From Rhodocyclaceae bacterium (GTDB lineage Bacteria > Pseudomonadota > Gammaproteobacteria > Burkholderiales > Rhodocyclaceae): 64,000 nt of DNA. The notes under the pieces were generated by a model, which saw only the letters and a program-made list of their open reading frames with translations, had not been told where the DNA came from and made no database searches. The translations under genes and the position numbers were made by a program. Positions 2,865-41,737 of this stretch are shown here, one piece after another (the first letter of the stretch is position 1; each line of letters begins with the position of its first letter). The stretch is from NCBI GenBank assembly GCA_030681195.1, contig JAUXXJ010000008.1, positions 1 through 64,000 of the forward strand, written 5' to 3'.

Positions 2865-3619
2865 GCGACATCCTCGCCGAGATAGGCCCGCTTGACGGCC
2901 GAATCGGCACGAATGGCATCCGGCGTGCCCGTGGCCGCGATATGCCCGGCGACCAATACCGAGATGTGATCGGCGACGCGAAACACCATGTCCATATCGT
3001 GCTCAACCAGGAGTACGGTCTGCTCGCCCTTGAGCGAGGCAATCAATTGGGTCATGCGCTCCGATTCCTCTGGCCCCATGCCAGCCAGCGGCTCATCCAG
3101 CAGCAACAGACGAGGGCGTGTGGCCAAGGTCATCGCCAGTTCGAGTGCGCGTTGTTCGCCATGCGACAGATCGGCCGCGTGCGTGCCAGCATGTTCCGCC
3201 AGACCGACGCGACCCAGCCAGTCTTCGGCTTCCTCGATCATCGAAAAGTCGGCGCTGGCGGGACGCCACATGCTCAGACTGCTGCCCCAGTCGCGCTGTC
3301 GTGCCTGCACGGCCAGACGCACATTCTCGAGAACAGAGATTTTCGGGAAGATTTGCGTAATCTGGAAGGAGCGGGCAATCCCCAAAGCAACCCGCTCATG
3401 CATCGATTTTTTCGTGACATCCCGGCCATCGAAAAGCAGATGACCCTCATCCGGAAACAGTCCTCCCGAGATGAGATGAATCAGTGTGGTCTTGCCGGCG
3501 CCATTCGGGCCGATGAGGGCATGAATTTCGCCGCATTGAATTTCCAGCGAGACATCCCGGGTGGCCCACAGGCCGCCGAAATGCCGTTTCAGATTCTGGA
3601 TGGTCAGCAGGGACGTCAT
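2861..3619 (-). CDS. livG: ABC transporter ATP-binding protein, LivG type
   Basis: Second ATPase of the HAAT-type importer, 252 residues from the ATG at 3619, which overlaps the livM stop by 4 bases. The frame stays open further upstream, but that is only the shadow of livM. Walker A is GPNGAGKTT, the signature LSHGEQRALELAMTL, and Walker B LLLLDEPLAGMGPEE. Residues about 117-126 (WRPASADFS region) are encoded by a copy of the dispersed repeat, in the variable segment after SVLENVRLAVQAR. The frame remains intact, so the protein is probably functional. Confidence 0.93.
   Translation of the reverse strand: MTSLLTIQNLKRHFGGLWATRDVSLEIQCGEIHALIGPNGAGKTTLIHLISGGLFPDEGHLLFDGRDVTKKSMHERVALGIARSFQITQIFPKISVLENVRLAVQARQRDWGSSLSMWRPASADFSMIEEAEDWLGRVGLAEHAGTHAADLSHGEQRALELAMTLATRPRLLLLDEPLAGMGPEESERMTQLIASLKGEQTVLLVEHDMDMVFRVADHISVLVAGHIAATGTPDAIRADSAVKRAYLGEDVA
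3243..3269 (+). repeat. Dispersed REP-like element, short form, copy 2 (inside livG)
   Basis: GAAAAGTCGGCGC followed by TGGCGGGACGCCAC, antisense to livG and read in frame as part of the LivG protein. It differs from the short consensus by one base near the 3' end. Confidence 0.75.
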
Positions 3620-8297: not shown

Positions 8298-8325
8298 ATG
8301 CCGTCCTGCCAGCGCCGACTTTTCA
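8298..8325 (-). repeat. Dispersed REP-like element, short form, copy 3
   Basis: Reads on the + strand as TGCCGTCCTGCC then AGCGCCGACTTTTCAA. It ends 18 bases before the start codon of the LpxR-like gene, so it lies in that gene's leader. Confidence 0.8.
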
Positions 8326-9427: not shown

Positions 9428-9450
9428 CCGTCTCGCCAGCGCCGACTTTT
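9428..9450 (-). repeat. Dispersed REP-like element, short form, copy 4
   Basis: CCGTCTCGCC then AGCGCCGACTTTT on the + strand, in the 161-bp gap between the LpxR-like gene and the phosphoketolase gene, about 53 bases upstream of the latter's ATG. Confidence 0.75.
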
Positions 9451-9503
9451 ATCTTGATTCGCCATGCGTAAAACCCCTGTCACAAAGTTGAGGAGTACGA
9501 GCC

Positions 9504-23675: not shown

Positions 23676-24326
23676 TCAGTTGGGAGCGAACCCGTGGTTG
23701 ATGGCGTAGCGGGTCAGTTCGGCGACGTTGTGCAGGTCAAGTTTGCGCATGATGTTGCGGCGGTGCACTTCAACCGTGGAGTGCGCAATGAAGAGTTGGG
23801 TGGCGATTTGTTGTGAGGTATGCCCTTCGGCCACCAGTTGCAATACCTGGCGCTCGCGGGCGCCCAGCTGGAGCGGCGGGCTCAGCTTGATGTCGCGCTG
23901 GGATGACCAGGTGCCGGCAATCAGGCTGGCAATGCGCGGGCACACATACTTCTGGCCGTTCTGCACCGCCTCGATGGCCCGTAGCAGTTCCTCCCCAGCC
24001 CCCGATTTGGTGACATAGGCGGTCGCGCCGGCATCGAACATGTCCATGGCGTAGCGCTGTTCGGCAAATGCCGATACGGCAATGATTTTGGTTTCCGGAC
24101 AGAGCGTGCTCAGTCGTCGCGTCGCTTCGATACCATTCATGCCGGGCATGCCAATGTCCATGCAGATGATGTCGGGCGTGGTGGCCTGTGCCAGCTTGAC
24201 GACCTCCAGCCCGTCACCGGTCTCGCCGACGACCTTGATGTGTGGCGATTTCTCCAGCAGGCTGCGCAGCGCATCGCGAAACATCTGATGATCATCCGCG
24301 AGCAAAATTCGCAGCGACTTTTTCAT
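23676..24326 (-). CDS. NarL/FixJ-family response regulator
   Basis: 216 residues. The receiver domain has ADDHQMFRD and the phosphoacceptor Asp57 in [13 protein letters not shown], with the conserved Ser/Lys switch residues (AVSAF, VTKSG). A LuxR-type helix-turn-helix (about 150-212) reads [22 protein letters not shown] then [15 protein letters not shown]. The ATG overlaps the PAS kinase stop by 4 bases, making it that kinase's obvious partner. Regulators of this family bind TAC...GTA inverted repeats; three 16-bp sites of that kind occur in the window, one upstream of this operon. Confidence 0.94.
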
Positions 24327-25954
24327 GCCTGAATACTCACGTTGATTCGTGTCCCCTGACCCGGATGCGATTCGATGATCATTTGCCCGCCGGCAAATTC
24401 GGCCATTTCGCGCATGTTGAGCAATCCCATGCCGCTGACCGAGGCCTTGGACTCAACTGAGGCGATATCGAAGCCGATACCGTCGTCGTCGATGGTCAGG
24501 AGGATGGGGATGGCATCGAAGTCGATGGCGACATTGATGTGTCGAGCCTTGGCATGCTTGAGGCTGTTGGTCAGTGCTTCCTGAAAAATGCGAAAGAGCA
24601 GTGATTCCAGGGCCGGGGCCAGGCGCGTTTCCCGATTGCTGCAATGGACATGGACCAGAATGCCGGTACGGCTGGCATAGCGATGGGCGTATTCCTCCAT
24701 GGCGGCGGGTAGTCCGGCGTAGTCCAGAATTGGGCTGCGCAGGTCGGCGCAGATTTCGCGGATGCTGACATCGGTATCTTCAATCAGCGCGATGGTGTCG
24801 GCCAGACGATCAACGCATTCCGATGGCGCATCCGGTGGCAGGGCGGTGGTGATCATGCCCAGGTTGATCTTGATGGCGGCGAGGTTGGGGCTGGTGTGAT
24901 CGTGCAGTTCACCCGACAGACGGCGCCGGGCATCCTCCTGCGCCTCGACGAGATGGCGCGACAGTTCGAGCAGCCGCCGCGATGCCGTCGCCAGGCCACT
25001 TTCCATCACCGAGCGCTGGCGCAGCGCTTTGCTGTCGTCGCGCACAATCTTCTGGACATAACTGCTGCCATCGATCTCGACCATGGTGGCGCCAACTTGT
25101 ACCGGAAAAGAGCTGCCATCGGCACGGCAGTGCCAGGTCTGATAGGACATCGACCCCTGTTCTGACAACTGCTGCAATATCGCGGGAATGTCCAGATGCG
25201 TATCCGGCGCACGCAAGTCCATCAGCCGCATGCCGAGCAATTCTTTGCGGGTATGACCATAAGTGTTCAGACAAGAGTCGCTGGCATCGATAATCCGGGA
25301 GTTGGCATCGAACATCAGAATGGCATCGTTGGCATGTCGCATAAATGATTCGATGCGCCGCGCGTTATGCTTTCTCTCGTTTTCCGCATGCTTGCGCTGG
25401 GTGATGTCGGTCAGGGCGACACGAATCATCAGGCCGCTGGAAACGCTGCGGTGGTACATGCAATTCAGTTGAGCATGCAGGAGGGTGTTGTCGCTGCGCT
25501 TGAGCGCCAGTTCCAGATCCAGTTCGAACGCAAAACTCTTTTGCCCCTCGCTCTCGCTCATCCGCGAGTAATGCTGAACCCAGCGATCTTGGTCTTCTCG
25601 CGCCACGAAGGAGGTAAAACTTTTCTGCAGAACCTTTTTGCGCTCCATCCCCAGAAAGTTGGCGCCAGCCAGATTGATTTCCGTAATCAGGCCTTGGGGT
25701 GTGAGCGTCAGGTAACCCACCGGGGCAAACTCGTAGAGATCCTGATAGCGGTCGCGCGCCTCCTCCAGACTGAGTTGCGTGAGTCGCAAGGTTTCGTTCT
25801 GCATCTCCAGTTCGATCTGATGCACTTGCAGTTCGTGCAGCAGCTTTTCGACCGGACGGCCTCCGACGGATTTTTCGGATGGGTGTGCGGACTTATTTTG
25901 GCTTTCCGCCACAGAGGCGGCCAGGTGGAGTGGTTCGGCCGCTAGGTTTTTCAT
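24323..25954 (-). CDS. PAS-domain sensor histidine kinase (HisKA_3 type)
   Basis: 543 residues from the ATG at 25954. The N-terminus has the [18 protein letters not shown] module shared with the hybrid kinase downstream, then two PAS domains (about 68-185 and 205-325). The HisKA_3 dimerisation box is GELHDHTSPNLAAI (His near 354), and the HATPase has EALTNSLKHAKARH and DDDGIGFD. No membrane segment, so the signal is probably cytosolic. It is translationally coupled to the NarL-type regulator. The frame opens 35 codons earlier, at 26059, but that would run through the putative operator at 26039-26054. Confidence 0.92.
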   Translation of the reverse strand: MKNLAAEPLHLAASVAESQNKSAHPSEKSVGGRPVEKLLHELQVHQIELEMQNETLRLTQLSLEEARDRYQDLYEFAPVGYLTLTPQGLITEINLAGANFLGMERKKVLQKSFTSFVAREDQDRWVQHYSRMSESEGQKSFAFELDLELALKRSDNTLLHAQLNCMYHRSVSSGLMIRVALTDITQRKHAENERKHNARRIESFMRHANDAILMFDANSRIIDASDSCLNTYGHTRKELLGMRLMDLRAPDTHLDIPAILQQLSEQGSMSYQTWHCRADGSSFPVQVGATMVEIDGSSYVQKIVRDDSKALRQRSVMESGLATASRRLLELSRHLVEAQEDARRRLSGELHDHTSPNLAAIKINLGMITTALPPDAPSECVDRLADTIALIEDTDVSIREICADLRSPILDYAGLPAAMEEYAHRYASRTGILVHVHCSNRETRLAPALESLLFRIFQEALTNSLKHAKARHINVAIDFDAIPILLTIDDDGIGFDIASVESKASVSGMGLLNMREMAEFAGGQMIIESHPGQGTRINVSIQA

Positions 25955-26038: not shown

Positions 26039-26054
26039 TACCCAGATACCAGTA
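26039..26054. promoter_or_regulatory. Putative NarL-type operator, site 1
   Basis: TACCCAGATACCAGTA: TACC, eight bases, AGTA, the 7-2-7 inverted-repeat geometry bound by NarL-family regulators. It lies 85 bases upstream of the PAS kinase start, suggesting autoregulation of the kinase-regulator operon. Flanking bases CTGGG/CCCAG are shared with sites 2 and 3. Confidence 0.5.
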
Positions 26055-26085: not shown

Positions 26086-26113
26086 TGAAAAGTCGGCGCT
26101 GGCGGGACGGCAC
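26086..26113 (+). repeat. Dispersed REP-like element, short form, copy 8
   Basis: TGAAAAGTCGGCGC then TGGCGGGACGGCAC, the cleanest short copy. It ends 4 bases before the galE stop codon (galE reads leftward), so it lies right at the galE 3' end and upstream of the PAS kinase. Confidence 0.85.
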
Positions 26114-29940: not shown

Positions 29941-30510
29941 GTGACCAAATGGAATTTCATGTTGGCGGTTGCTGGCGTCGTGGCGCTGGGTGCCTGGTTG
30001 CTGCAGATCGTCGTGAGTGCGACAGCCATCCTGCCCATTGATTTGTTGGTGCCCGTTGTCGTCGATACCGATAAACGCATCCTTGTTGTACCAGCGCAGC
30101 CTCTGACACAGCTCAACTGCGCTTCCTGTGGCGTGGTGGTATCCATGCGCCTGGTGACGGCTATCGATGGTGCCGCCGTTAGAAATCCGGTGGGCAGCGC
30201 GGTGTTTGGCAGCATGATCGGCAATCTGATGGGAGGCACGCGCGGCCAGGAGTTGTTCGGCTGGCTGGGCGCAATCGCGGCCATACGCAATGGCGAGGTG
30301 CTACACCCCGGCATGTACTACGAAACGACGATACGCTTTGACGACGGGGGGACGCGCGCGTTTGTAAACATCACGCGGCCCCAATGGCGGGATGGGGATC
30401 AGGTGAGAGTCGTCGAAGGCGCTATTCAGACGTTCAGATCCGATGACGTCAAGCTGAAAGCGGAAGTCACGCTACCTTATCTTCTTTCCGTCGCTCCGGT
30501 ATGGCGCTGA
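29941..30510 (+). CDS. Small membrane protein related to SlyB-type proteins
   Basis: 189 residues from a GTG at 29941, with AAAGGA about 8 bases upstream. The N-terminal membrane segment (FMLAVAGVVALGAWLLQIVV) is followed by NCASCGVVVSMRLV, a glycine-rich stretch (GSAVFGSMIGNLMGGTRG) resembling a glycine zipper, and a beta-rich C-terminus with TTIRFDDGGTRAFVNIT and WRDGDQVRVVEG. The CxxCG-V-S pattern is shared with the gene at 16743. Its last 10 bases overlap the cyclic glucan synthase start, implying coupled translation. Confidence 0.7.
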   Translation: MTKWNFMLAVAGVVALGAWLLQIVVSATAILPIDLLVPVVVDTDKRILVVPAQPLTQLNCASCGVVVSMRLVTAIDGAAVRNPVGSAVFGSMIGNLMGGTRGQELFGWLGAIAAIRNGEVLHPGMYYETTIRFDDGGTRAFVNITRPQWRDGDQVRVVEGAIQTFRSDDVKLKAEVTLPYLLSVAPVWR

Positions 30511-33500
30511 CCAGAGTCTGGGCAGGGCTGCAGTCGCTGCTCGATGGCAGCAACCATTCATCGGCTACGCTCGATGAGGCGCTCCCCCTGCGCGCCGAGT
30601 TGTTCAGTGTTGCCCAGATGGCGCAGCATGGCCAGGTGCTGGCGGCAGCGCATCAGCCGCTGGCGGGTCACGGCCCGGACAAACTTCTGGCGCGACTGGA
30701 CAAGAACGAGTCTGCCATTATCGACGTGTGCAGACGGTTGTCGGCCGTAGCGACCACCAAGCGGCGCAGCATGCCGGCCGGCGAGTGGCTGCTGGACAAT
30801 CTGTACTTGATCGAGGAGCAGATTCGCACCGCCCGACGGCATCTGCCGAAGGGCTACAGCCGGGAGCTTCCACGTCTTACCAACGGACATACGGCCGGCT
30901 GTCCGCGAGTTTATGATCTGGCACTGGAAGCGGTAGCGCATGGCGACGGCCGCGTCGATGTCGAGACGCTGGGGCGCTTCGTTACCGCCTACCAGTCGGT
31001 TGCGGTTCTCACGCTGGGGGAGTTGTGGGCCGTTCCCATCATGCTGCGACTGGCGCTGATCGAGAACCTCTGCCGGGTGAGTGTGCGGATTGCGGCGAGC
31101 TGGGCCGACCGTAAGCTGGCGGATAGCTGGGCGGACCGCATGACGGATGCTGCCGAGACGGATCCAAAAAGCCTGATTCTGGTCACCGCCGATATGGCCC
31201 GCTCGAATCCGCCAATGGCGGGCGCCTTCGTGGCGGAACTGGCGCGCCGTCTGCAGGGGCACGGTCCTGGACTGGCGCTGCCGCTCACCTGGATTGAGCA
31301 GCATCTCGCTGAATCCGGGCTGACGATTGACCAGATGGTCCTGCAGGAAAATCAGGAGCAGGCCGTCAATCAGGTCTCCATTGGCAACAGTATTGGCACC
31401 CTGCGCGCCTTGGGCGCGATTGACTGGCGGGATTTTGTCGAAACCCAGAGTGTGGTGGAACAGACGCTGCGCGAGGATCCGGGCGGTGTTTATGCCCGAA
31501 TGGATTTTGCGACGCGCGATCGGTATCGCCATGCGACAGAGGTGATTGCCAAAAAGACGCATTTGACGGAAAGCGCGGTAGCGCGCAAGGCGCTTGAGTT
31601 GGCGAAGCTTGGACCGACAGCGGATGGGCGCACAGCGCACGTCGGCTACTATTTGATTGACAAGGGGCTGGCGGCGCTGGAGCAGGCGGCGCAGGTTCGT
31701 TTGTCTTTTTGGGAACGCTTGCGGCGAACGGCGAGTCGGCATCCGCTGTCCCTGTATCTCGGCATCATCTTTCTGATCGCGGCGCTGAGCACCGGCGCGC
31801 TGTTGGCGGCTGCGGCGCATGCCGTCCCGAATTGGGCGTTGCCGCTCCTTGGCGCACTCCTGCTGTTGGCAAGCAGCCAGCTGGGCGTCGCGCTGACCAA
31901 CTGGTTCGCGACCCTGGTGGTGACGCCGCACTCGCTACCGAAGATGGACTTCTCGGGCGGCATCCCGTCAGCGGCGCGCACGCTGGTGGTCGTGCCGACC
32001 ATGCTGACCTGTGTGGACGGCATCAATGAACTGGCCGAGGCAATTGAAGTCAGGTTTCTGGCCAACCGGGATGAATGCCTGCATTTCGGCTTGCTGACCG
32101 ATTTTGGCGATGCACTGACGGAATCTTTGGCCGAAGATGCGTTGTTACTGACGCTGGCGCAGTCGCATATTGCCGCCCTGAACGTCAAGTATGGGGGTGG
32201 AGGCAAGGATGTCTTTTTCCTGTTTCACCGTCCGCGGTGCTGGAATGCGCAGGAACACTGCTGGATGGGATTCGAGCGCAAGCGCGGCAAACTGGCCGAC
32301 CTGAATGCCTTGCTGCGCGGCAATCCAGATGCGCGTTTTTCACGGGTTGAGGGCAACATCGCTGCCCTGGTCGATGTGAAGTTCGTCATCACGCTGGATA
32401 CGGATACGCAATTGCCGCTCGATGCGGCACGGCGTGCCGTGGGGGCGATGGCACATCCGTTGAACCGGGCAGTTCATGACCCGGTGCCGGGCCGGATTGT
32501 GGCCGGATACGGGATCATGCAGCCCGGTATGGCCATCAGCCTGCCGGGCACCAACCGTTCCTGGTATGCCGGGTTGTATGGGGGAGAAACAGGGATTGAT
32601 CCCTATACGCGTACGGTCTCCGATGTCTATCAGGATGTCTTTGACGAAGGCTCCTTCATTGGCAAGGGCATCTATGACGTCGATGCCTTCGAGCAAACCC
32701 TGGGGGGGCGGTTTCCCGAAAATTGCATCCTCAGTCACGATCTGCTGGAGGGTTGCTACGCACGCTCCGCGCTGCTGAGCGATGTTGCGCTGTATGAAGA
32801 TATTCCCGCCAGTTATCTCACCGATATGCGCCGCCGCCAGCGCTGGATACGTGGCGACTGGCAACTGCTGGGCTGGTTGCGGCGGCATGTTCCTGCGCTG
32901 CGCATGGCCAATGGGGACACTGCGCAGCCTTCGACGGTCGAGAAAAATCCGCTTTCCTGGTTATCGCAATGGAAGCTGTTGGATAACCTGCGGCGCAGCC
33001 TGATGCCGGCGGCATTGGTGCTGATGCTGATCTTCGGCTGGGTGGTGCTGCCATCGGTGCCGTGGTGGACGGCGGCGGTACTCGGAATTCTGCTGTTGCC
33101 CCTCCTGTGCGTCAGCGTTCTCGACCTGATGCGCAAACCGGATGAGGTGCTGCTGCACCAGCATGCCGCAGCGGTGCTCGACACCCTGATCCGGCGCCTG
33201 CTGCAGACTGCGTACGAGATTGCCTGTCTGCCGTTCGAGGCATTCGTCAGCCTCGATGCGATAGCACGTACGTTGTGGCGCATCGGCGTTAGCCGCAGGC
33301 ATCTGCTCGAATGGAATCCTTCATGCCAGGCGAACCGTGACAATGCCCGAGCGGGGCATGGCGAGTTTCTTGGGGTGCTGCGCGAGATGTGGGTTGCCCC
33401 GTTCCTGGCGGTCGCGGTGACGGCTTACCTGGTCAGCGTTGCGGTGGACACCGAGGCCCCACTGACTACCTTGATCATCGCCGGGCCGATCCTGTTGTCA

Positions 33501-36500
33501 TGGTTTGTTGCACCGCTGGCCGCCTGGTGGCTTGGGCGTGAGCGGATCGACCGTCTGCCGCTGCTGACGGCCGAGCAGCAGAGCTTCCTGCGCATGCTGG
33601 CACGGCGGACCTGGTCATTCTTCGACCAGTTTGTCGGGCCGACAGATCACTGGTTACCGCCGGACAATTATCAGGAATATCGCACGGCAGTGGTGGCACA
33701 TCGCACCTCGCCGACCAACATGGGACTGGCGCTGCTGGCGAACCTGGCCGCCTACGACTTCGGCTATCACTCGACCGGACAAGTGGCCCTGCGGACCGCC
33801 CACACCCTGCGCACGATGAACGAGCTGGAGCGGCATTGCGGACATTTCTATAACTGGTATGACACGCAAACGCTGCAGCCTTTGCCGCCGCGCTACGTGT
33901 CGACAGTCGATAGCGGCAACCTTGCCGGTCACCTGCTGACCTTGAGTGCCGGCCTGCGCCAGTTGGTGGATGAGCCGGTCGTGAGTGCACGCTGCTTCGT
34001 CGGTCTGCAGGACACCCTCGACATTCTGGTGGACACCGGGGGTGTTGCCGTCGATCAACTGGCCATGGCATTTCGGCGTGAGCTTGGGATTGCAATGGCT
34101 GCCCATCCCGACACGCTGGACATGGCCTGTCTGGCGCTGACCAAGGTGTCGGCCGCTGCCGACCAACTCGTTACAGCGCTTGCCCGCCATGCGGATTTTG
34201 GTCTCGAATCTGAAACGGCGCGCTGGGGGCATTTGCTGGCAAGACAAAGCCGCGAGGCCCTGGAGGATCTGCACCATCTTGCGCCATGGCTGAAGCAAGC
34301 CCTGCCATCAGACGCCATGAACACACTCGCCAACACCCAAGGGATGCTGAGCTTGCGCAGTCTGGCTGACTGGAGTGCGGCGGCCAGTGACAGGATGGCG
34401 ACGCTGGAAGGTCTGGCCGAACAAGTCTTCGCACTTGCTCACATGGAGTACGACTTCCTGTTTGACCACTCACGGCGTTTGCTGAGCATTGGCTACAACG
34501 TGGGCGAGGGCCGCGCGGATGCCAGTTTCTATGATTTGCTGGCTTCCGAAGCACGGCTGTGCAATTTCGTTGCGATTGCCCAGGGGAAGCTGCCTCAGGA
34601 AAGCTGGTTTTCCCTCGGGCGCCTGCTGACGGGGACGGGTGGGAAGCCCGTCCTGCTGTCGTGGACCGGTTCGATGTTCGAGTACCTGATGCCGCTGCTG
34701 GTGATGCCAAGCTACGACAACACCTTGCTGGATCAGACGTGCAAGGCCGCTGTGGCGCGCCAGATCGAATATGGCAGCCAGTGCGGCGTGCCCTGGGGGA
34801 TATCGGAATCCGGCTACAACATGGTCGATGTGCATCTGAACTACCAGTATCGCGCCTTCGGCGTACCCGGTCTGGGGCTGAAGCGCGGCCTGGCCGACGA
34901 TCTGGTCGTCAGTCCCTACGCCTCCGTCCTCGCCTTGATGGTCGCGCCCGAACCGGCCTGCCAGAATCTGCAGCGACTTACCGACAGCGGGATGCTTGGG
35001 CGCTTCGGCTGCTTCGAAGCCATCGATTACACGCCGAGCCGGCAGCGGCGCGGCCAGAGCAGCACGGTGATCCGCTCCTACATGGCCCATCATCAGGGGA
35101 TGAGTCTGCTGGCGCTGGCGTATGCGTTGTGCGATCGTCCGATGCAGCGGCGGTTTGGGGCAGAGCGGCAGTTCCAGGCGGTCATGCTGTTGCTGCAGGA
35201 GCGGATTCCCAAATCATCCGCACTGTTTACACACACGGACGAGTTGCTTGGCACGCGTGTGCCATCGGCGTCTGCCGATATCCCGATCCGCGTCATCGAT
35301 AGCCCCGATACACCCTACCCGGAAGTACAGTTGTTATCGAATGGCCGCTATGCGGTGATGGTCACCAATGCCGGCGGGGGCTACAGCCGCTGGAAGAATC
35401 TCGCTGTCACGCGCTGGCGTGAGGACGCTACCTGCGACCGCTGGGGGACTTATTGCTACATTCGCGAGGTGGCCAGCGGCCAGTTCTGGTCGACCGCCCA
35501 TCAGCCCACGCTGAAGCGTGCCACGAGTTACGAGGCCATCTTCTCCGAAGGGCGTGCCGAATTCCGGCGTCGCGACAAGCTTCGGTCGGGTGATGGCGCC
35601 ATCGATACCTATACCGAAATCGTCGTTTCACCGGAGGACGATATCGAGTTGCGGCGCGTCTGCATCACGAACCGCTCGCGCCAGCGCCGCGTCATCGACG
35701 TCACCAGCTATGCCGAAGTGGTGATTGCGCCTGCGGCAGCCGACGAGATGCATCCGGCGTTCAGCAACCTGTTCGTGCAGACCGAGATCATTTCTGAGCG
35801 ACATGCCATTCTGTGTTCGCGTCGCCCCCGTTCGGCCGACGAGCCAGTGCCCTCAATGTTCCATCTGATGGTGGTGCATGGCACGCCTCCCCGTGCCGTC
35901 TCCTACGAAACGGATCGTTCGCGCTTCATCGGTCGCACCCGTTCGGTGATTGATCCGCAGGCCTTGCGCGATCCAGGCGCACTTTCCGGGACGGCCGGGG
36001 CAGTGCTCGATCCCATGGTGGCGATTCGTTATGAGCTGACGCTGGAGCCGGAACAGGCCGTGATGCTGGACATGGTGTTCGGCATTGCCGACTCGCGCGA
36101 TATTGCTCTGAGCCTGTTGGAGAAATATCAGGACAAGCATCTGGCCGACCGGGTCTTCGACCTCGTGCTGACGCATAGCCAGGTCGCGTTGCAACAGATT
36201 AACGCCAGCGAAGCGGATGCGCAGGTGTATGCACGCCTGGCCAGCTCCCTGATTTATGCCAACACGTCGCTGCGTGCCGCCGCCGCCGTGATCGGTGCGA
36301 ACCGGCGCGGGCAGTCAGGCTTGTGGGGCTACGCCATTTCCGGCGATTTGCCGATTGTGTTGTTGCAGATCCGCGATGCCGCCAACATCGATTTTGTGCG
36401 CCAACTGGTGCAGGCGCATGCCTACTGGCGCCTGAAGGGGCTGGCCGTCGATCTGGTGATCTGGAACGAGGATCATGCCGGTTACCGGCAGCGCTTGCAG

Positions 36501-39206
36501 GAGCAGATCATGGGCATGATTGCCTCGGGGGCCGAAGCAAGCCTGATCGATCATCCGGGCGGCATCTTCGTGCGTCAGGCGGAACAGATCTCGATTGAAG
36601 ATCGCATCCTGTTCCAGTCGGTGGCCCGGGTGCTGATCGCGGATTCGCGCGGGACATTGGCGGAGCAGCTCGAACGGCGCAGCCTGCCCGAATTGCGGGT
36701 GCCTTTGCATGTACCGGTTCGTCCGTACAAGGAGGTGCCCACGCCCAACACGGATGCAGTACTGCGCAGCGACCTGATCCTGGCCAATGGTCTGGGCGGA
36801 TTTTCTGCCGACGGACGCGAATATGTCATCGTGCTCGGACCAGGGCAGACAACGCCAGCCCCCTGGGCGAACGTGCTGGCCAATCCGCGTTTCGGCACGA
36901 TTGTGTCGGAATCCGGATCGGCCTACACCTGGGGTGAAAACGCGCATGAATTCCGCTTGACGCCCTGGCATAACGACCCGGTCAGCGATGCGGGCGGCGA
37001 GGCGATTTACCTTCGTGACGAAGAGAGCGGTCACGTCTGGTCGCCCACGCCACTGCCGGCGGGCGGCGCAGTGCCCTGCGTCATTCGCCATGGCTTCGGC
37101 TATAGCGTTTTCGAGAGTACGGTGGTGGGTATTCGTACTGAATTGTGGGTGTATGTGGCCCTCGATGCCGACATCAAGTTCTCGGTGCTGAAAGTCCGCA
37201 ACGAGTCGGCGCATTTGCGGAAAATTTCCGTGACCGGCTACGTCGAGTGGGTGCTGGGTGATGTGCGCGGCAAGTCGGCCATGCACATCACGACAGAGAT
37301 CGAACCCCAGAGTGGTGCGCTCATGGCGCGCAATGCCTATAGCCAGGAATTCGCCGAGCGGGTGGCGTTCTTCGATGTGGATGACCCGAAGCGCACGCTG
37401 ACCGGTGATCGTCGTGAATTCATCGGCCGTAACGGCAGCTTGCGCCGTCCGGATGCTCTGCAGCGTGTGCGGCTGTCCGGCAAAGTGGGCGCCGGGCTGG
37501 ACCCGTGTGCGGCACTTCAGGTGGGCACCGAATTGCTCCCGGGGCAGGAGCGCCAGATCATCTTCCGTCTTGGTGTCGGCAGCAATGCGGAAGAGGCCGC
37601 CCGGCTCGTGTCGCGCTATCGTGGCACGGGTGGCACGAGCGGCATACTGGCGGCGCGCAATGCGCTGGATGCCGTCAGGGCGTATTGGCAACAGTTGCTA
37701 GGTGCAGTCCGCATCGAGACGCCTGATCCTGCGGTCGATGTGATGGCCAATGGCTGGCTCGTTTACCAGACGCTGGCCTGTCGGCTCTGGGCACGCAGTG
37801 GCTATTACCAATCCGGCGGGGCGTTCGGATTCCGCGATCAACTGCAGGACACCATGGCCCTGGTGCATGCCGAGCCAGGCCAGGTGCGCGCACATTTGCT
37901 GCTGTGTGCCAGCCGCCAATTCCTCGAAGGCGATGCCCAGCACTGGTGGCACCCGCCCTCCGGCCGTGGCGTACGCACGCGCTGTTCGGACGACTATCTG
38001 TGGTTGCCTCTGGCCGTCTGCCGGTATGTTCTGAGTACCGCCGATACGGGCGTGCTGGAGGAGCGGGTGCCCTTCCTGGAGGGACGCCCGGTGAATCCCG
38101 AAGACGATTCCTACTACGACCTGCCGGGCCGCGCGGGTGAGTCGGCCACACTGTATGAGCATTGCGTGCGGGCGATCCGTCACGGCTTGCGCTTTGGCGC
38201 CCATGGCCTGCCGCTGATCGGTTCCGGCGACTGGAACGACGGCATGAATCTGGTGGGTATTCGCGGCAAGGGCGAGAGTGTCTGGCTCGGGTTTTTCCTT
38301 TGTGACGTGCTCAGCCAGTTTGCGACCGTGGCCGACAGCCATGGCGATCCCGCATTCGCCGCCGCCTGCCGTGATGAGGCGGAACAGTTGGGGCAGCGCA
38401 TCGAAGCGAACGGCTGGGATGGTGACTGGTATCGGCGCGCCTATTTTGACGATGGCACACCGCTCGGTTCATCCACCAATGTGGAATGTCGCATCGATTC
38501 CATCTCGCAGAGCTGGTCGGTGTTGTCTGGTGCTGGCGATCCGGCGCGGGCACGTTGGGCGATGCGCTCGCTGGATGAGCGACTGATTCGCCGCGATGTC
38601 GCGTTGGTGCAATTGCTCGATCCGCCGTTTGATCAGGCCATCGTTGATCCCGGCTACATTCGCGGCTACGTGCCGGGGGTGCGCGAGAACGGTGGGCAAT
38701 ATACCCATGGGGCGATTTGGGCCGCCATGGCGTTTGCCGCCTTGGATGACCGCGTGCGCGCCTGGGAAGTGCTGCGCATGATCAACCCCGTCAACCATGC
38801 CTTGTCGGCGGCAAGCGTCGCGACGTACAAGGTCGAGCCCTACGTGGTGGCGGCCGATGTGTATGCGGTGACCCCGCACACCGGACGTGGCGGCTGGAGT
38901 TGGTATACCGGCTCGGCCGGCTGGATGTACCGGCTGATTCTGGAATCCCTGCTGGGGCTGCGACGCGAAGGGACGACGCTGCATTTCGTGCCGTGCCTGC
39001 CGGCGGAGTGGACGACCTTCACGATTCATTACCGCTATCACGAGACGCCCTACCGCATCGTCGTGTCACAGACGCATGACCTCGATAGCGAGCAGCCAGA
39101 AAAGACCTTGTTAAGCGTCGATGGGGTGGCTATGCCGGATGGACGGGTGCTGCTTGTCAATGATCTGCGCGAACATGCCGTCGAAGTGAGTCGCCATGTT
39201 CACTAG
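30501..39206 (+). CDS. Cyclic beta-1,2-glucan synthase (NdvB/ChvB type)
   Basis: 2901 residues, the largest gene here. Order: N-terminal region; membrane segments (about 415-470); a GT84 glycosyltransferase (about 500-830) with DTDTQLPLD, DEGSFIGKG and RRQRWIRGDWQLL (D, D, QxxRW); more membrane segments (about 830-880 and 965-1010); a glycoamylase-like domain (about 1030-1560); then two GH94-type regions from about 1600 and 2090 with the catalytic GSGDWNDGMN near 2574. Enzymes of this kind build protein-linked beta-1,2-glucan at the inner membrane, cyclise it and trim it by phosphorolysis. Periplasmic cyclic glucans serve osmoadaptation and surface interactions. Confidence 0.93.
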   Translation: MALTRVWAGLQSLLDGSNHSSATLDEALPLRAELFSVAQMAQHGQVLAAAHQPLAGHGPDKLLARLDKNESAIIDVCRRLSAVATTKRRSMPAGEWLLDNLYLIEEQIRTARRHLPKGYSRELPRLTNGHTAGCPRVYDLALEAVAHGDGRVDVETLGRFVTAYQSVAVLTLGELWAVPIMLRLALIENLCRVSVRIAASWADRKLADSWADRMTDAAETDPKSLILVTADMARSNPPMAGAFVAELARRLQGHGPGLALPLTWIEQHLAESGLTIDQMVLQENQEQAVNQVSIGNSIGTLRALGAIDWRDFVETQSVVEQTLREDPGGVYARMDFATRDRYRHATEVIAKKTHLTESAVARKALELAKLGPTADGRTAHVGYYLIDKGLAALEQAAQVRLSFWERLRRTASRHPLSLYLGIIFLIAALSTGALLAAAAHAVPNWALPLLGALLLLASSQLGVALTNWFATLVVTPHSLPKMDFSGGIPSAARTLVVVPTMLTCVDGINELAEAIEVRFLANRDECLHFGLLTDFGDALTESLAEDALLLTLAQSHIAALNVKYGGGGKDVFFLFHRPRCWNAQEHCWMGFERKRGKLADLNALLRGNPDARFSRVEGNIAALVDVKFVITLDTDTQLPLDAARRAVGAMAHPLNRAVHDPVPGRIVAGYGIMQPGMAISLPGTNRSWYAGLYGGETGIDPYTRTVSDVYQDVFDEGSFIGKGIYDVDAFEQTLGGRFPENCILSHDLLEGCYARSALLSDVALYEDIPASYLTDMRRRQRWIRGDWQLLGWLRRHVPALRMANGDTAQPSTVEKNPLSWLSQWKLLDNLRRSLMPAALVLMLIFGWVVLPSVPWWTAAVLGILLLPLLCVSVLDLMRKPDEVLLHQHAAAVLDTLIRRLLQTAYEIACLPFEAFVSLDAIARTLWRIGVSRRHLLEWNPSCQANRDNARAGHGEFLGVLREMWVAPFLAVAVTAYLVSVAVDTEAPLTTLIIAGPILLSWFVAPLAAWWLGRERIDRLPLLTAEQQSFLRMLARRTWSFFDQFVGPTDHWLPPDNYQEYRTAVVAHRTSPTNMGLALLANLAAYDFGYHSTGQVALRTAHTLRTMNELERHCGHFYNWYDTQTLQPLPPRYVSTVDSGNLAGHLLTLSAGLRQLVDEPVVSARCFVGLQDTLDILVDTGGVAVDQLAMAFRRELGIAMAAHPDTLDMACLALTKVSAAADQLVTALARHADFGLESETARWGHLLARQSREALEDLHHLAPWLKQALPSDAMNTLANTQGMLSLRSLADWSAAASDRMATLEGLAEQVFALAHMEYDFLFDHSRRLLSIGYNVGEGRADASFYDLLASEARLCNFVAIAQGKLPQESWFSLGRLLTGTGGKPVLLSWTGSMFEYLMPLLVMPSYDNTLLDQTCKAAVARQIEYGSQCGVPWGISESGYNMVDVHLNYQYRAFGVPGLGLKRGLADDLVVSPYASVLALMVAPEPACQNLQRLTDSGMLGRFGCFEAIDYTPSRQRRGQSSTVIRSYMAHHQGMSLLALAYALCDRPMQRRFGAERQFQAVMLLLQERIPKSSALFTHTDELLGTRVPSASADIPIRVIDSPDTPYPEVQLLSNGRYAVMVTNAGGGYSRWKNLAVTRWREDATCDRWGTYCYIREVASGQFWSTAHQPTLKRATSYEAIFSEGRAEFRRRDKLRSGDGAIDTYTEIVVSPEDDIELRRVCITNRSRQRRVIDVTSYAEVVIAPAAADEMHPAFSNLFVQTEIISERHAILCSRRPRSADEPVPSMFHLMVVHGTPPRAVSYETDRSRFIGRTRSVIDPQALRDPGALSGTAGAVLDPMVAIRYELTLEPEQAVMLDMVFGIADSRDIALSLLEKYQDKHLADRVFDLVLTHSQVALQQINASEADAQVYARLASSLIYANTSLRAAAAVIGANRRGQSGLWGYAISGDLPIVLLQIRDAANIDFVRQLVQAHAYWRLKGLAVDLVIWNEDHAGYRQRLQEQIMGMIASGAEASLIDHPGGIFVRQAEQISIEDRILFQSVARVLIADSRGTLAEQLERRSLPELRVPLHVPVRPYKEVPTPNTDAVLRSDLILANGLGGFSADGREYVIVLGPGQTTPAPWANVLANPRFGTIVSESGSAYTWGENAHEFRLTPWHNDPVSDAGGEAIYLRDEESGHVWSPTPLPAGGAVPCVIRHGFGYSVFESTVVGIRTELWVYVALDADIKFSVLKVRNESAHLRKISVTGYVEWVLGDVRGKSAMHITTEIEPQSGALMARNAYSQEFAERVAFFDVDDPKRTLTGDRREFIGRNGSLRRPDALQRVRLSGKVGAGLDPCAALQVGTELLPGQERQIIFRLGVGSNAEEAARLVSRYRGTGGTSGILAARNALDAVRAYWQQLLGAVRIETPDPAVDVMANGWLVYQTLACRLWARSGYYQSGGAFGFRDQLQDTMALVHAEPGQVRAHLLLCASRQFLEGDAQHWWHPPSGRGVRTRCSDDYLWLPLAVCRYVLSTADTGVLEERVPFLEGRPVNPEDDSYYDLPGRAGESATLYEHCVRAIRHGLRFGAHGLPLIGSGDWNDGMNLVGIRGKGESVWLGFFLCDVLSQFATVADSHGDPAFAAACRDEAEQLGQRIEANGWDGDWYRRAYFDDGTPLGSSTNVECRIDSISQSWSVLSGAGDPARARWAMRSLDERLIRRDVALVQLLDPPFDQAIVDPGYIRGYVPGVRENGGQYTHGAIWAAMAFAALDDRVRAWEVLRMINPVNHALSAASVATYKVEPYVVAADVYAVTPHTGRGGWSWYTGSAGWMYRLILESLLGLRREGTTLHFVPCLPAEWTTFTIHYRYHETPYRIVVSQTHDLDSEQPEKTLLSVDGVAMPDGRVLLVNDLREHAVEVSRHVH

Positions 39207-39222
39207 CGACTTAGGCAGCACG

Positions 39223-40917
39223 TCAGTGGCGGGCGACATCCAGGCGGCTATTCGGGTTGCCCCGAAACATTTCTGAGTTGTCGGGTTCTGAGAGCTTGAA
39301 CGCGATGGCAATTTGCGTCCCGACACCGGCTTGCGATTCCAGGGAGAAGCGGCCGCCGATAAACTCGGCACGGTGCTGCATCGTGCGCAAGCCCTGGCCC
39401 GACTTGGGCGGATGCTGCGGATCGAAACCGGCACCATCATCGCTGATGATCAGCTTGACCTCATTGCCGTTGATGACTTGTCGGATATGGATCGATTTTG
39501 CCCGGGCATGTTTGGCACAGTTGGTCAGGGCTTCCTGAACGATGCGAAACAGGTTGGTCTCGATTACTGGCGGTAGACGCAATGCGGATTGCGCGCATTC
39601 TGCCTGCACCGCAATGCCGGTGCGGCGTTTGAAATGCTGCGCGTAGCCCTCAATGGTGATCCAGAAGTCGGATTGATCGAGCAGCGGTGGGTGAAACTCG
39701 GCACTGATGGTGCGAATGCTTTCGATCGTGTCGTCGAGCAGTGCGGCGGCGTCATCGAGTACCTGGGCCGCTTCCTCCGTTGACCGTCGTGTGGTTGCGT
39801 CTGCCAGCAGCCGCCAGTTGATTTCGAGCGCACTCAGGTTCGGGCTGGTACGGTCATGCAGTTCGACGGCCAGGCGGCACCGTTCTTCCTCCTGAATCAT
39901 GACCAGCCGGCGGGCTACCTCGGCATCGCGCTTGATCGTTTCCATTGCCGCAATCTCGCGCTGGCGCAGATGCACCCGCCAGACCAGGAACAGAGTGGCG
40001 CTGATGGCGAGGGCAACGATCAGTGTGCGCAGGAGCAGATTGCGCCACCATCCTGCCAGTACGTTATTGAGCGGGTGGGCAATGGCCACGCCAAGCCCGC
40101 TATTGCCGATCGACCGGTGGATGTAGAGCCGTTCGACGCCATCAGCCTGGGATACCCCGATGCTGCGGACCATGGGTTGTTTGGCGTTGAGGTAGTTCTG
40201 GAACTGGGCTGATTTCCCCATGTTGAAGCCAACGTATTTTTCCGGATCGGGCGAGCGATAGAGGAAGTCACCCTGCGGGTTGAAGATCGCGTCGACAGAA
40301 TAATCCCCTCCCGATGCCATGACCTGTTGCATCACGCTATCGAAAAATTGGTAATTCACGCCGGCGGCGACCACGCCGAGAAAACGGTTCTGCTCGTCAC
40401 GGATCGCGACCGAGAAGACGATCGAGTAATCACCGAAACTCGACTTGAAGGGGCGTGAGATATGGAAGTTGCTGTCGATGATCTGGTCGCGGTGGGCGGT
40501 GAAGTACTCACGCTGCGACGCGTCGAATCCCTGGAGTGTCGGGATGAGGCTGGTCACGGCCCGGCCAGCGGCATTGAGGATCACTATCGAGCGGATTTCG
40601 GGTAGCTCTTGTTTGACTTGGTCCAGGGTCATTGCGGCGTGGTCAGGCAGTGCGTGCCGGGGGATGCCGGCGCGCTCCGCCGCGACCTGCCTGAGGGCTT
40701 GGCGAATGTGGCGCAGCAGGCCAGCCAGTTGGCTGTCGGCGATGCGGGCGTGGGCCTCCAAAATGGCGTATTCGGTTTCCAGTGCGTGCTGACGTTCCTC
40801 GTAGGCAAACCAGACGGTCATCGCGATGATGATGGACAGCACGAAGGCCGGCACTATCCAGACCGATTCCAGAACGCTGGAAGGGAGTGTGAGGCGGGGG
40901 AGAATTACTTTAATCAT
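39223..40917 (-). CDS. Cache-domain sensor histidine kinase (HisKA_3 type), orphan
   Basis: 564 residues. A membrane helix (about 18-40), a periplasmic double-Cache-like sensor (about 45-285, with QREYFTAHRDQ and FSVAIRDEQNRFLGVVAAGV), a second helix (about 292-315), then HisKA_3 with VELHDRTSPNLSAL (His near 350) and HATPase with EALTNCAKHARAKS and DDGAGFDPQ. No regulator is adjacent. The HDxTSPNL box matches that of the PAS kinase at 24323, and the same operator type lies upstream of both, so the NarL-type regulator at 23676 is a likely partner. An 18-base G tract lies 18 bases before the start. Confidence 0.9.
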   Translation of the reverse strand: MIKVILPRLTLPSSVLESVWIVPAFVLSIIIAMTVWFAYEERQHALETEYAILEAHARIADSQLAGLLRHIRQALRQVAAERAGIPRHALPDHAAMTLDQVKQELPEIRSIVILNAAGRAVTSLIPTLQGFDASQREYFTAHRDQIIDSNFHISRPFKSSFGDYSIVFSVAIRDEQNRFLGVVAAGVNYQFFDSVMQQVMASGGDYSVDAIFNPQGDFLYRSPDPEKYVGFNMGKSAQFQNYLNAKQPMVRSIGVSQADGVERLYIHRSIGNSGLGVAIAHPLNNVLAGWWRNLLLRTLIVALAISATLFLVWRVHLRQREIAAMETIKRDAEVARRLVMIQEEERCRLAVELHDRTSPNLSALEINWRLLADATTRRSTEEAAQVLDDAAALLDDTIESIRTISAEFHPPLLDQSDFWITIEGYAQHFKRRTGIAVQAECAQSALRLPPVIETNLFRIVQEALTNCAKHARAKSIHIRQVINGNEVKLIISDDGAGFDPQHPPKSGQGLRTMQHRAEFIGGRFSLESQAGVGTQIAIAFKLSEPDNSEMFRGNPNSRLDVARH

Positions 40918-40927
40918 AGCCCCGCCG

Positions 40928-40933
40928 ATTCTA
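40928..40933 (-). promoter_or_regulatory. Candidate -10 box for the Cache kinase
   Basis: TAGAAT on the minus strand, one base after the 18-C tract. A start about 7 bases downstream would give a leader of only about 4 bases before the ATG, so either the mRNA is nearly leaderless or the true promoter lies elsewhere. Confidence 0.3.
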
Positions 40934-40934
40934 T

Positions 40935-40952
40935 GGGGGGGGGGGGGGGGGG
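40935..40952. repeat. 18-base homopolymer G tract (C on the coding strand)
   Basis: An uninterrupted run of 18 G, the only long mononucleotide run I noticed in the window. It sits between the putative NarL-type operator (40959-40974) and the start codon of the Cache kinase. Runs of this length slip during replication, so the spacing between operator and gene should vary between cells. An assembly error in the count is possible. Confidence 0.9.
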
Positions 40953-40958
40953 TAGTAA

Positions 40959-40974
40959 TACCCGGATACTGGTA
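40959..40974. promoter_or_regulatory. Putative NarL-type operator, site 2
   Basis: TACCCGGATACTGGTA: TACC, eight bases, GGTA, flanked by AATA and TTCTGGG. It lies immediately upstream of the 18-base tract, centred about 50 bases before the Cache kinase start. Same geometry as sites 1 and 3. Confidence 0.55.
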
Positions 40975-40989
40975 TTCTGGGACGAACGC

Positions 40990-41018
40990 TTGAAAAGTCG
41001 GCGCTGGTGAGACGGCAC
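40990..41018 (+). repeat. Dispersed REP-like element, short form, copy 9
   Basis: TTGAAAAGTCGGCGC then TGGTGAGACGGCACC, between operator site 2 and the 3' end of the CsbD-like gene (stop 41041). Confidence 0.8.
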
Positions 41019-41040
41019 CTGACGGGATACGCGCGCCAAG

Positions 41041-41259
41041 TCAGGCGGTGATCTTCCAGTGGCGATGACGATGGAGAAATTCGCCGAGTTGGCGATCCGC
41101 CTTTGCCCTGGATAAACCAAGCTGCGCCCGAATGCGGCCCGTGAATTGGGCCTTTCTACCGGTTACGGCGAGCTCCGGCTCATCGCTCAGATGGCCCCAG
41201 GTTTCCTCGATGATGCCGACGAACTGCTGCAGCCGACCAATCCATTGATCGCGGTTCAT
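41041..41259 (-). CDS. Divergent CsbD-like protein
   Basis: 72 residues. MNRDQWIGRLQQFVGIIEET, then WGHLSDEPELAVTGRKAQFTGRI and LSRAKADRQLGEFL align with the CsbD layout (MNWDxxEGxWKQxKG, WGKLTDD, AGxRDQLxGK) but with many substitutions. It starts 3 bases after the stop of the upstream hypothetical gene, so the two form an operon. Presumably a stress-type protein; the divergence leaves its role open. Confidence 0.7.
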   Translation of the reverse strand: MNRDQWIGRLQQFVGIIEETWGHLSDEPELAVTGRKAQFTGRIRAQLGLSRAKADRQLGEFLHRHRHWKITA

Positions 41260-41262
41260 GGT

Positions 41263-41628
41263 TCAGCCGGCACACGCGGCCATGCTTTGCGGCGCGGCGC
41301 GATGGTCACGATAGGTGGCCGGATAGAGCGTTGCCGCGAGGGGACGCACGATTGAACGACATTCCACCACCTCGGGCGAGAGCATCATGCCGTCCTGAAT
41401 CAGCCCGAGGGAGAGGGCACTGCGTTGCAGTAGACGTGCTTCGGCACAGGTCTGAAACGGTCCGAAGTAACGTTTCCCATGGTTGCGTCCCGCTTGTCTG
41501 GCGGCTGGCCAGATCACAAAGTAGTAGCCGGCGTCGAGCGGACGATCCGTGACCGCTTCGATCTCCAGACCGTGTCGAATTTGTCCCGTGAGTGATTGCG
41601 GGTCGACGATATGGATGATTTCGTGCAT
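41263..41628 (-). CDS. Hypothetical protein
   Basis: 121 residues from the ATG at 41628, which has CAGGAGG 6 bases upstream. No family recognised. The middle, YYFVIWPAARQAGRNHGKRY followed by FGPFQTCAEARLLQRSALSL, looks like a small strand-loop-strand-helix domain. No signal peptide or membrane segment. It heads a two-gene operon with the CsbD-like gene, and an operator-like site (41722-41737) lies 94 bases upstream. Confidence 0.7.
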   Translation of the reverse strand: MHEIIHIVDPQSLTGQIRHGLEIEAVTDRPLDAGYYFVIWPAARQAGRNHGKRYFGPFQTCAEARLLQRSALSLGLIQDGMMLSPEVVECRSIVRPLAATLYPATYRDHRAAPQSMAACAG

Positions 41629-41721
41629 GACTGCCTCCTGGTGCGTTGCCTGTCGGTTCTTGTGTTGCCATGGTACGTAGCCAGAGGGACCGCTTAAATA
41701 CCGGGGAGTCGCTATTTGCGC

Positions 41722-41737
41722 TACCGATAAGCCGGTA
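41722..41737. promoter_or_regulatory. Putative NarL-type operator, site 3
   Basis: TACCGATAAGCCGGTA: TACC, eight bases, GGTA, followed by TCTGGG as in the other two sites. It lies between the hypothetical/CsbD-like operon (94 bases from its start) and the divergent MBOAT gene (123 bases from its start), so either or both could be controlled. The rest of 41629-41859 holds no gene. Confidence 0.5.

Follow-up and report, generated by a model that had tools for sequence, protein, structure and literature searches.

A C-tract spacer between a predicted NarL-type operator and a -10-like box upstream of a sensor kinase gene in a Rhodocyclaceae bacterium

In the 64-kb stretch of Rhodocyclaceae DNA that we analyzed (64,000 nucleotides; referred to as the window), the gene for a 564-amino-acid sensor kinase is preceded by a palindromic operator, an uninterrupted run of 18 C residues and a -10-like hexamer, in that order. 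We favor, with a probability slightly above one half (about 0.52), the reading that this region is the kinase gene's own promoter: a response regulator would bind the palindrome, the C tract would form a spacer whose slippage alters expression, the assembled allele would be weak or OFF, and the kinase could take part in a feedback loop. The elements of this region are:

39223-40917, minus strand: sensor kinase, 564 aa, with dCache_1, HisKA_3 and HATPase_c domains (domain search); its N-terminus agrees with those of homologues
40914-41018, minus strand: GTG reading frame of 34 codons that spans the tract and terminates at the kinase ATG
40928-40933, minus strand: -10-like hexamer TAGAAT, 25 nt past the operator and 10 nt ahead of the ATG
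40935-40952, minus strand: 18-nt G tract (C on the kinase coding strand), the spacer from operator to -10-like box
40959-40974, minus strand: palindromic operator TACCAGTATCCGGGTA, 16 bp, with two mismatches to TACCGG-N4-CCGGTA

Read along the minus strand, the region consists of TACCAGTATCCGGGTA (40974-40959), TTACTA, C18, A, TAGAAT (40933-40928), CGGCGGGGCT and the kinase start codon ATG (40917-40915). A T flanks the G18 run at both ends, and the arms of the operator extend to AATACC-N8-GGTATT. A preliminary description of this DNA had placed the G18 run at 40935-40952, a TACC-N8-GGTA site at 40959-40974, TAGAAT at 40928-40933 and the ATG at 40917, and all of these positions hold. It had also likened the layout to that of the Bordetella fim promoters; at the sequence level the Fim-type order of regulator operator, C run and -10 box is indeed found at the kinase, but the spacer with 18 C extends 3-4 nt beyond the usual 21-22 nt. 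The -35 region of the kinase promoter falls inside the C run and we detected no sigma-70-type consensus hexamer pair within 40850-41350, so that the promoter should depend on both an activator and the length of the tract. As just 10 nt separate TAGAAT from the ATG, a transcript started there would have hardly any leader, in contrast to those of the kinase homologues, a feature that counts against the promoter reading.

The tract could instead act in translation, with the kinase being read from the transcript of the upstream operon and the GTG frame crossing the C tract. This frame reads the tract as six prolines, its TGA overlaps the kinase ATG, its phase shifts with tract length, and 16 or 19 C would fuse it in frame to the kinase; furthermore, the 123-nt gap between the stop codon of the upstream CsbD-like gene and the kinase ATG contains no terminator-like site. 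However, nothing supports the GTG start itself, the kinase ATG is kept whatever the length of the tract, and the homologues fit a short N-terminus and show an operator and a -10 box instead, so that a translational role of the tract is improbable. A kinase start further upstream, which would render the tract coding, was rejected: at 18 C the frame is open for 41 codons but contains no ATG, GTG or TTG, and the N-termini of the homologues fit the ATG at 40917.

No other G/C run in the genome matches this tract in length; the runner-up has 12 nt. Among 3,664,058 bases in 58 contigs there are 64 G/C tracts of 8 nt or more; the other 63 comprise 38 tracts of 8 nt, 17 of 9, six of 10, and one each of 11 and 12, and a geometric fit to them predicts 0.0025 runs of 18 nt or longer. 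The second-longest homopolymer of the 64-kb window has 7 nt. Promoter and operator may nevertheless be real while the tract switches nothing, its length reflecting neutral expansion or a sequencing or assembly error. The length of the tract at the kinase is known from one assembly; exact peptide words retrieved no relative of the kinase for a length comparison from the contig collection, and no close orthologue or sister strain with more than 49% identity in the sensor part was found in 395 family genomes. The other genomes of the genus contain long G runs at 25 places, of which nine are situated less than 200 bases from a contig end, one adjoins Ns and three are grouped in one odd stretch. 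Since nine of these 25 runs lie near contig ends and one beside Ns, a long G run in a draft genome cannot always be taken at face value; at 18 C, moreover, there is no -10 box at the usual distance from the operator. Against a neutral or erroneous tract stand its position deep within contig C56 (354,718 bases) with clean flanks, its exact fit into the space from a conserved operator to a -10-like box, and the expectation that a run of such length slips, slippage rising with repeat number according to PMC1891110. On balance, we consider a tract without switching function unlikely.

G runs of 12 nt or more are present in 13 of the 19 genomes of the genus, the studied one included; many of them resemble assembly damage, and the idea that long G tracts are a trait of the genus was rejected. 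Clusters of G and C runs were noted in odd-looking sequence or at contig ends at positions 1502-1637 of locus L065 (G010:C19) and 47-119 of locus L067 (G005:C55); these same-genus clusters are possibly assembly damage.

Taken by itself, the kinase palindrome is at chance level. Exact TACC-N8-GGTA is found three times and perfect 6-8-6 inverted repeats 25 times in the 64-kb window, and ATACC-N8-GGTAT has two copies in the genome, the other one within an OmpA-like reading frame. With counts at chance level, we rejected the palindrome as stand-alone evidence; its weight comes from the comparison with relatives and not from the site itself. The two closest homologues of the sensor part in the 395 family genomes (L105 and L106, 49% identical, both in one other genus) each have the palindrome upstream of the kinase gene. 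In L105, the box TACCGGTTTTCGGGTA is followed after 21 nt by TATAGG; in L106, the box TACCGGCATGTCCGTA is followed after 23 nt by TAGAAT, the same hexamer as at the window kinase, and a second box is located further up. When two mismatches are tolerated and 400 nt are considered, only three of 27 more distant kinase homologues possess a box at all, and its position is scattered; this counts against the promoter reading, as do the two mismatches in the kinase box.

One might argue from such data that the palindrome at 40959-40974 arose by chance, as did the hexamer TAGAAT, and that the kinase gene lies outside the regulon of the NarL-type regulator encoded in the window. The two mismatches, the spacing that is 3-4 nt off, the near-leaderless start and the unenriched counts in the organism's own genome (see below) all agree with this. 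Yet at the genome's own rate only 0.6% of 123-nt gaps are expected to hold a site with up to two mismatches, and both of the closest kinase homologues have the palindrome upstream; we regard a chance site as improbable. The claim of the preliminary description that a NarL-type operator, a C tract as spacer and a -10-like box precede the kinase is backed by these two homologues and by the recurrence and spacing of the box near relatives of a regulator encoded in the window.

A second operator is situated upstream of the operon that precedes the kinase gene:

41041-41259, minus strand: CsbD/YjbJ-like gene, 72 aa, its end separated from the kinase ATG by 123 nt; below curated cut-offs
41263-41628, minus strand: 121-aa protein of no assigned family, first gene of the upstream operon
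41695-41700, minus strand: -10-like TATTTA, 21 nt past the second operator
41722-41737, minus strand: TACCGGCTTATCGGTA, a second operator with one mismatch, ahead of the 121-aa gene

The two genes are 3 nucleotides apart and lie on the kinase's strand. The product of 41041-41259 scored below the criteria for the CsbD family (20.5 bits for a cut-off of 40 with Pfam PF05532; 40.9 for 113 with NCBIfam PRK10428), and we refer to it as CsbD-like only; the 121-aa protein matched no family in Pfam or NCBIfam. All three close homologues of the latter (52-58% identity) have the palindrome upstream, two of these boxes standing 21 nt from TATAGG or TATTCA and one carrying TAGCAT at 23 nt, while the three distant homologues inspected by eye (L092, L101, L103) have no box. 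We observed the palindrome upstream of the 121-aa homologues at L089, L091 and L181, and the L181 gene adjoins a kinase-regulator pair. A box at L102 was dropped as an upstream site of a 121-aa homologue since it is not directly upstream of the gene. Elsewhere in the genome, TACCGGTAACGGGGTA, which overlaps the site at C44:365499, has the spacer GTGAGAATAGCGGCACCCCGG, similar to the spacer GCGCAAATAGCGACTCCCCGG of the 121-aa gene, and in both spacers CCCC stands just before the -10 box. It is plausible that such a CCCC was the seed from which the kinase tract expanded.

The candidate activator is encoded in the same window:

23676-24326, minus strand: NarL-type response regulator with Response_reg and GerE domains; candidate activator
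24323-25954, minus strand: PAS/HisKA_3 kinase overlapping the regulator gene; start codon presumed
26039-26054, minus strand: weak operator-like site with three mismatches, upstream of the kinase-regulator pair, with TATGAT 23 nt downstream; low confidence

With 96 bits for Response_reg and 74 bits for GerE, both above the cut-offs, the regulator belongs to the NarL/FixJ family by its domains, and its nearest solved structures in the PDB are VraR and NarL. We collected its relatives by protein similarity alone, disregarding the palindrome, which yielded 29 family loci with the own locus excluded. In 15 of these 29 loci we found a box with at most one mismatch, and TACCGG, with 16 hits, ranked first among 180 half-sites of equal composition, for which the mean was 0.92. 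Behind the 15 distinct boxes, TAT began at 21 nt seven times, at 22 nt three times, and at 23 and 24 nt twice each, some of the hits at 23-24 nt at least being the second TAT of TATAT; the 38 other offsets together accounted for five. When up to two mismatches were allowed, 17 boxes at these loci had TA at 20-23 nt, and 13 of them lead, by eye, into phasin-like frames, an identity confirmed by Pfam for the one frame of the 13 that was tested. At L204, L206, L211-L213, L217-L221 and L223-L225, the regulator gene is followed directly downstream by the palindrome and a phasin-like gene, and the spacer there is well kept, with an AACAC-like element and then TAT at 21-22 nt. This arrangement in the relatives is apparently a conserved regulon.

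A second collection, built from named relatives of the regulator, comprised 80 loci (18 near, 3 intermediate and 59 outgroup) and overlaps with the first, since the contigs of L228 and G035:C2 have the same length of 53,254. Boxes with at most one mismatch were present in 9 of the 18 near, none of the 3 intermediate and 5 of the 59 outgroup loci; the intermediate-identity loci (L243, L244 and L246, kept as a group of their own) had no box even with two mismatches. At up to two mismatches, six instances of TAT at 21 nt were seen among the 16 near boxes, and the 32 outgroup boxes had none at 21-22 nt. TACCGG was second of the 180 half-sites in this collection (10 hits), behind GCGCAT (11). The strict pattern of a box, 21-22 nt and TAT had 24 matches in 19 of the 395 family genomes, and a backward control had four. 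A relative of the regulator (E <= 1e-40) occurs in 17 of these 19 genomes compared with at least 167 of all 395, a lower bound as seven candidates were scored per genome (Fisher test, 1.8e-5). Several of the 24 strict-pattern sites had already been counted among the boxes at the 29 loci, the site sets of the three box analyses overlap, and homologous promoters are not independent samples. As far as these comparisons reach, the operator is found repeatedly in the vicinity of relatives of one NarL-type regulator, and its distance to the TAT shows a preference.

Counts within the window's own genome show no enrichment of the palindrome, with 176 sites against 424 for the control at up to two mismatches, and four box-plus-TAT matches against four. 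Of the 13 sites that deviate at no more than one position, ten fall within reading frames, which counts against a regulon; the three intergenic ones are those of the 121-aa operon, of C7:89281 (between a paralogous regulator gene and the next gene) and of C44:365499. The own regulator locus has no box with the right spacing within 1.5 kb, and the regulator 23676-24326 is connected to TACCGG-N4-CCGGTA solely through co-location of the palindrome with relatives of the regulator. Since the genome encodes three paralogues of this regulator (45, 45 and 41%), the binder at the kinase operator could be this regulator or one of the paralogues.

The kinase had been described as an orphan, which is correct with respect to its position, but some 15 kb away the window also encodes a NarL-type regulator and a related kinase. 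Because the catalytic half of the 40917 kinase is 42% identical to that of the 24323-25954 kinase, its closest counterpart in the genome, compared with 33% for the next best, it is plausible that the kinase feeds the 23676-24326 regulator, with cross-talk and feedback.

In the promoter reading that we favor, a NarL-family response regulator would bind the 16-bp palindrome and drive the kinase gene. The spacer equals 7 nt plus the number of C, and with the -10 hexamer taken to occupy -12 to -7, the palindrome is centered at -41.5 for 14 C (21 nt), at -42.5 for 15 C (22 nt) and at -45.5 for 18 C (25 nt). A center at -41.5 is the classical position of an activator beside RNA polymerase. Given an operator set apart by a C tract and the 21-22 nt preferred by relatives, slippage should tune expression of the kinase: gain or loss of C by slipped-strand events at replication would displace the activator with respect to RNA polymerase, both in distance along the helix and in rotational position, and this altered placement would change kinase expression. 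The usual geometry would be restored at 14-15 C, and the assembled 18-C allele is probably weak or OFF. The sequence itself shows the tract, the conservation of the operator, its preferred spacing and its association with the regulator family; regulator binding, the direction of the effect, slippage in vivo and feedback are what we infer. If the kinase phosphorylates the same regulator, a feedback loop tunable by tract length would form at its own promoter. A more far-reaching proposal, which is tentative and on the whole unlikely, is that of a phase-variable feedback gain: slippage in the spacer would set the input of a second kinase to its own activator, and the population would split heritably into groups whose entire regulon is more or less sensitive. 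If so, cells would differ in whole-regulon sensitivity and not in one surface protein.

With NarXL and NarQP the system shares a HisKA_3 kinase, a Response_reg plus GerE regulator and a 16-bp inverted operator with TAC...GTA ends; NarL operators have a 7-2-7 layout, and the operator interior found here differs from the NarL consensus. Unlike NarX and NarQ, the kinase has a dCache_1 sensor part and reached no NCBIfam equivalog cut-off (NarQ, 99 of 553 bits; NarX, 69 of 578 bits). In the Neisseria porA, opc and fetA promoters, the length of a poly-G spacer between the -35 and -10 regions of surface-protein genes alters transcription, and the homopolymer lies within the promoter spacer as it does here.

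The closest parallel to the kinase promoter is provided by the Bordetella fim promoters. Those of fim2, fim3 and fimX likewise combine the site of a two-component regulator (BvgA), a C run and a -10 box without a proper -35. There, C length decides expression (PMC10172299, PMC1891110, PMC12952627); B. pertussis fim3 is expressed with 14 C and not with 13, and an excess or a shortage of C is said to block transcription (PMC10172299). In B. bronchiseptica, fim tracts of up to C19 are on record, similar to the C18 found here (PMC1891110), as are poly(C) tracts ahead of predicted fimbrial genes at the fimX locus (PMC12952627). In contrast to fim, the operator has another sequence, the gene under control encodes a sensor kinase and no fimbrial subunit, the relatives of the window's promoter show an ordinary spacer in place of a C run, and the tract is known in one length, C18. 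In bvgS of Bordetella pertussis, a coding C6/C7 run decides whether a sensor kinase is made (PMC1891110); that switch is a coding frameshift, whereas the tract described here lies in a promoter or leader. There is thus precedent both for a sensor kinase switched by a tract (bvgS, coding) and for such switching of two-component-driven promoters (fim). Our literature search, with most subscription journals outside its scope, returned neither the combination of another operator with a predicted feedback loop nor a description of a TACCGG-N4-CCGGTA regulon, the latter being weak evidence that this regulon is undescribed.

If the reading is correct, switching by a homopolymer extends to the input side of a two-component network in an apparently environmental betaproteobacterium, with the sharp prediction that promoters with 14-15 C are active and that the one with 18 C is weak. 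The named regulator relatives include Thauera, Azonexus, Sterolibacterium and Gallionella MAGs, and from these the lifestyle of the host looks environmental. The analysis further suggests that relatives of one NarL-type regulator have an operator in common (TACCGG-N4-CCGGTA, 21-22 nt, TAT), which stands ahead of phasin-like genes and of the genes for a sensor kinase and a small protein of no assigned family.

Convergent with the kinase gene is a reading frame of 2901 aa (window positions 30501-39206), which we take to resemble cyclic beta-glucan synthases. A dispersed short repeat around GCCAGCGCCGACTTTTC has 11 copies (up to three mismatches) in the 64 kb compared with 0.42 expected, including those at 3243-3259, 8308-8324, 9435-9451, 26087-26103 and 40992-41008; some copies closely precede the kinase operator and the kinase-regulator pair, and there are more in the vicinity of L103 and L196 in the same genome.
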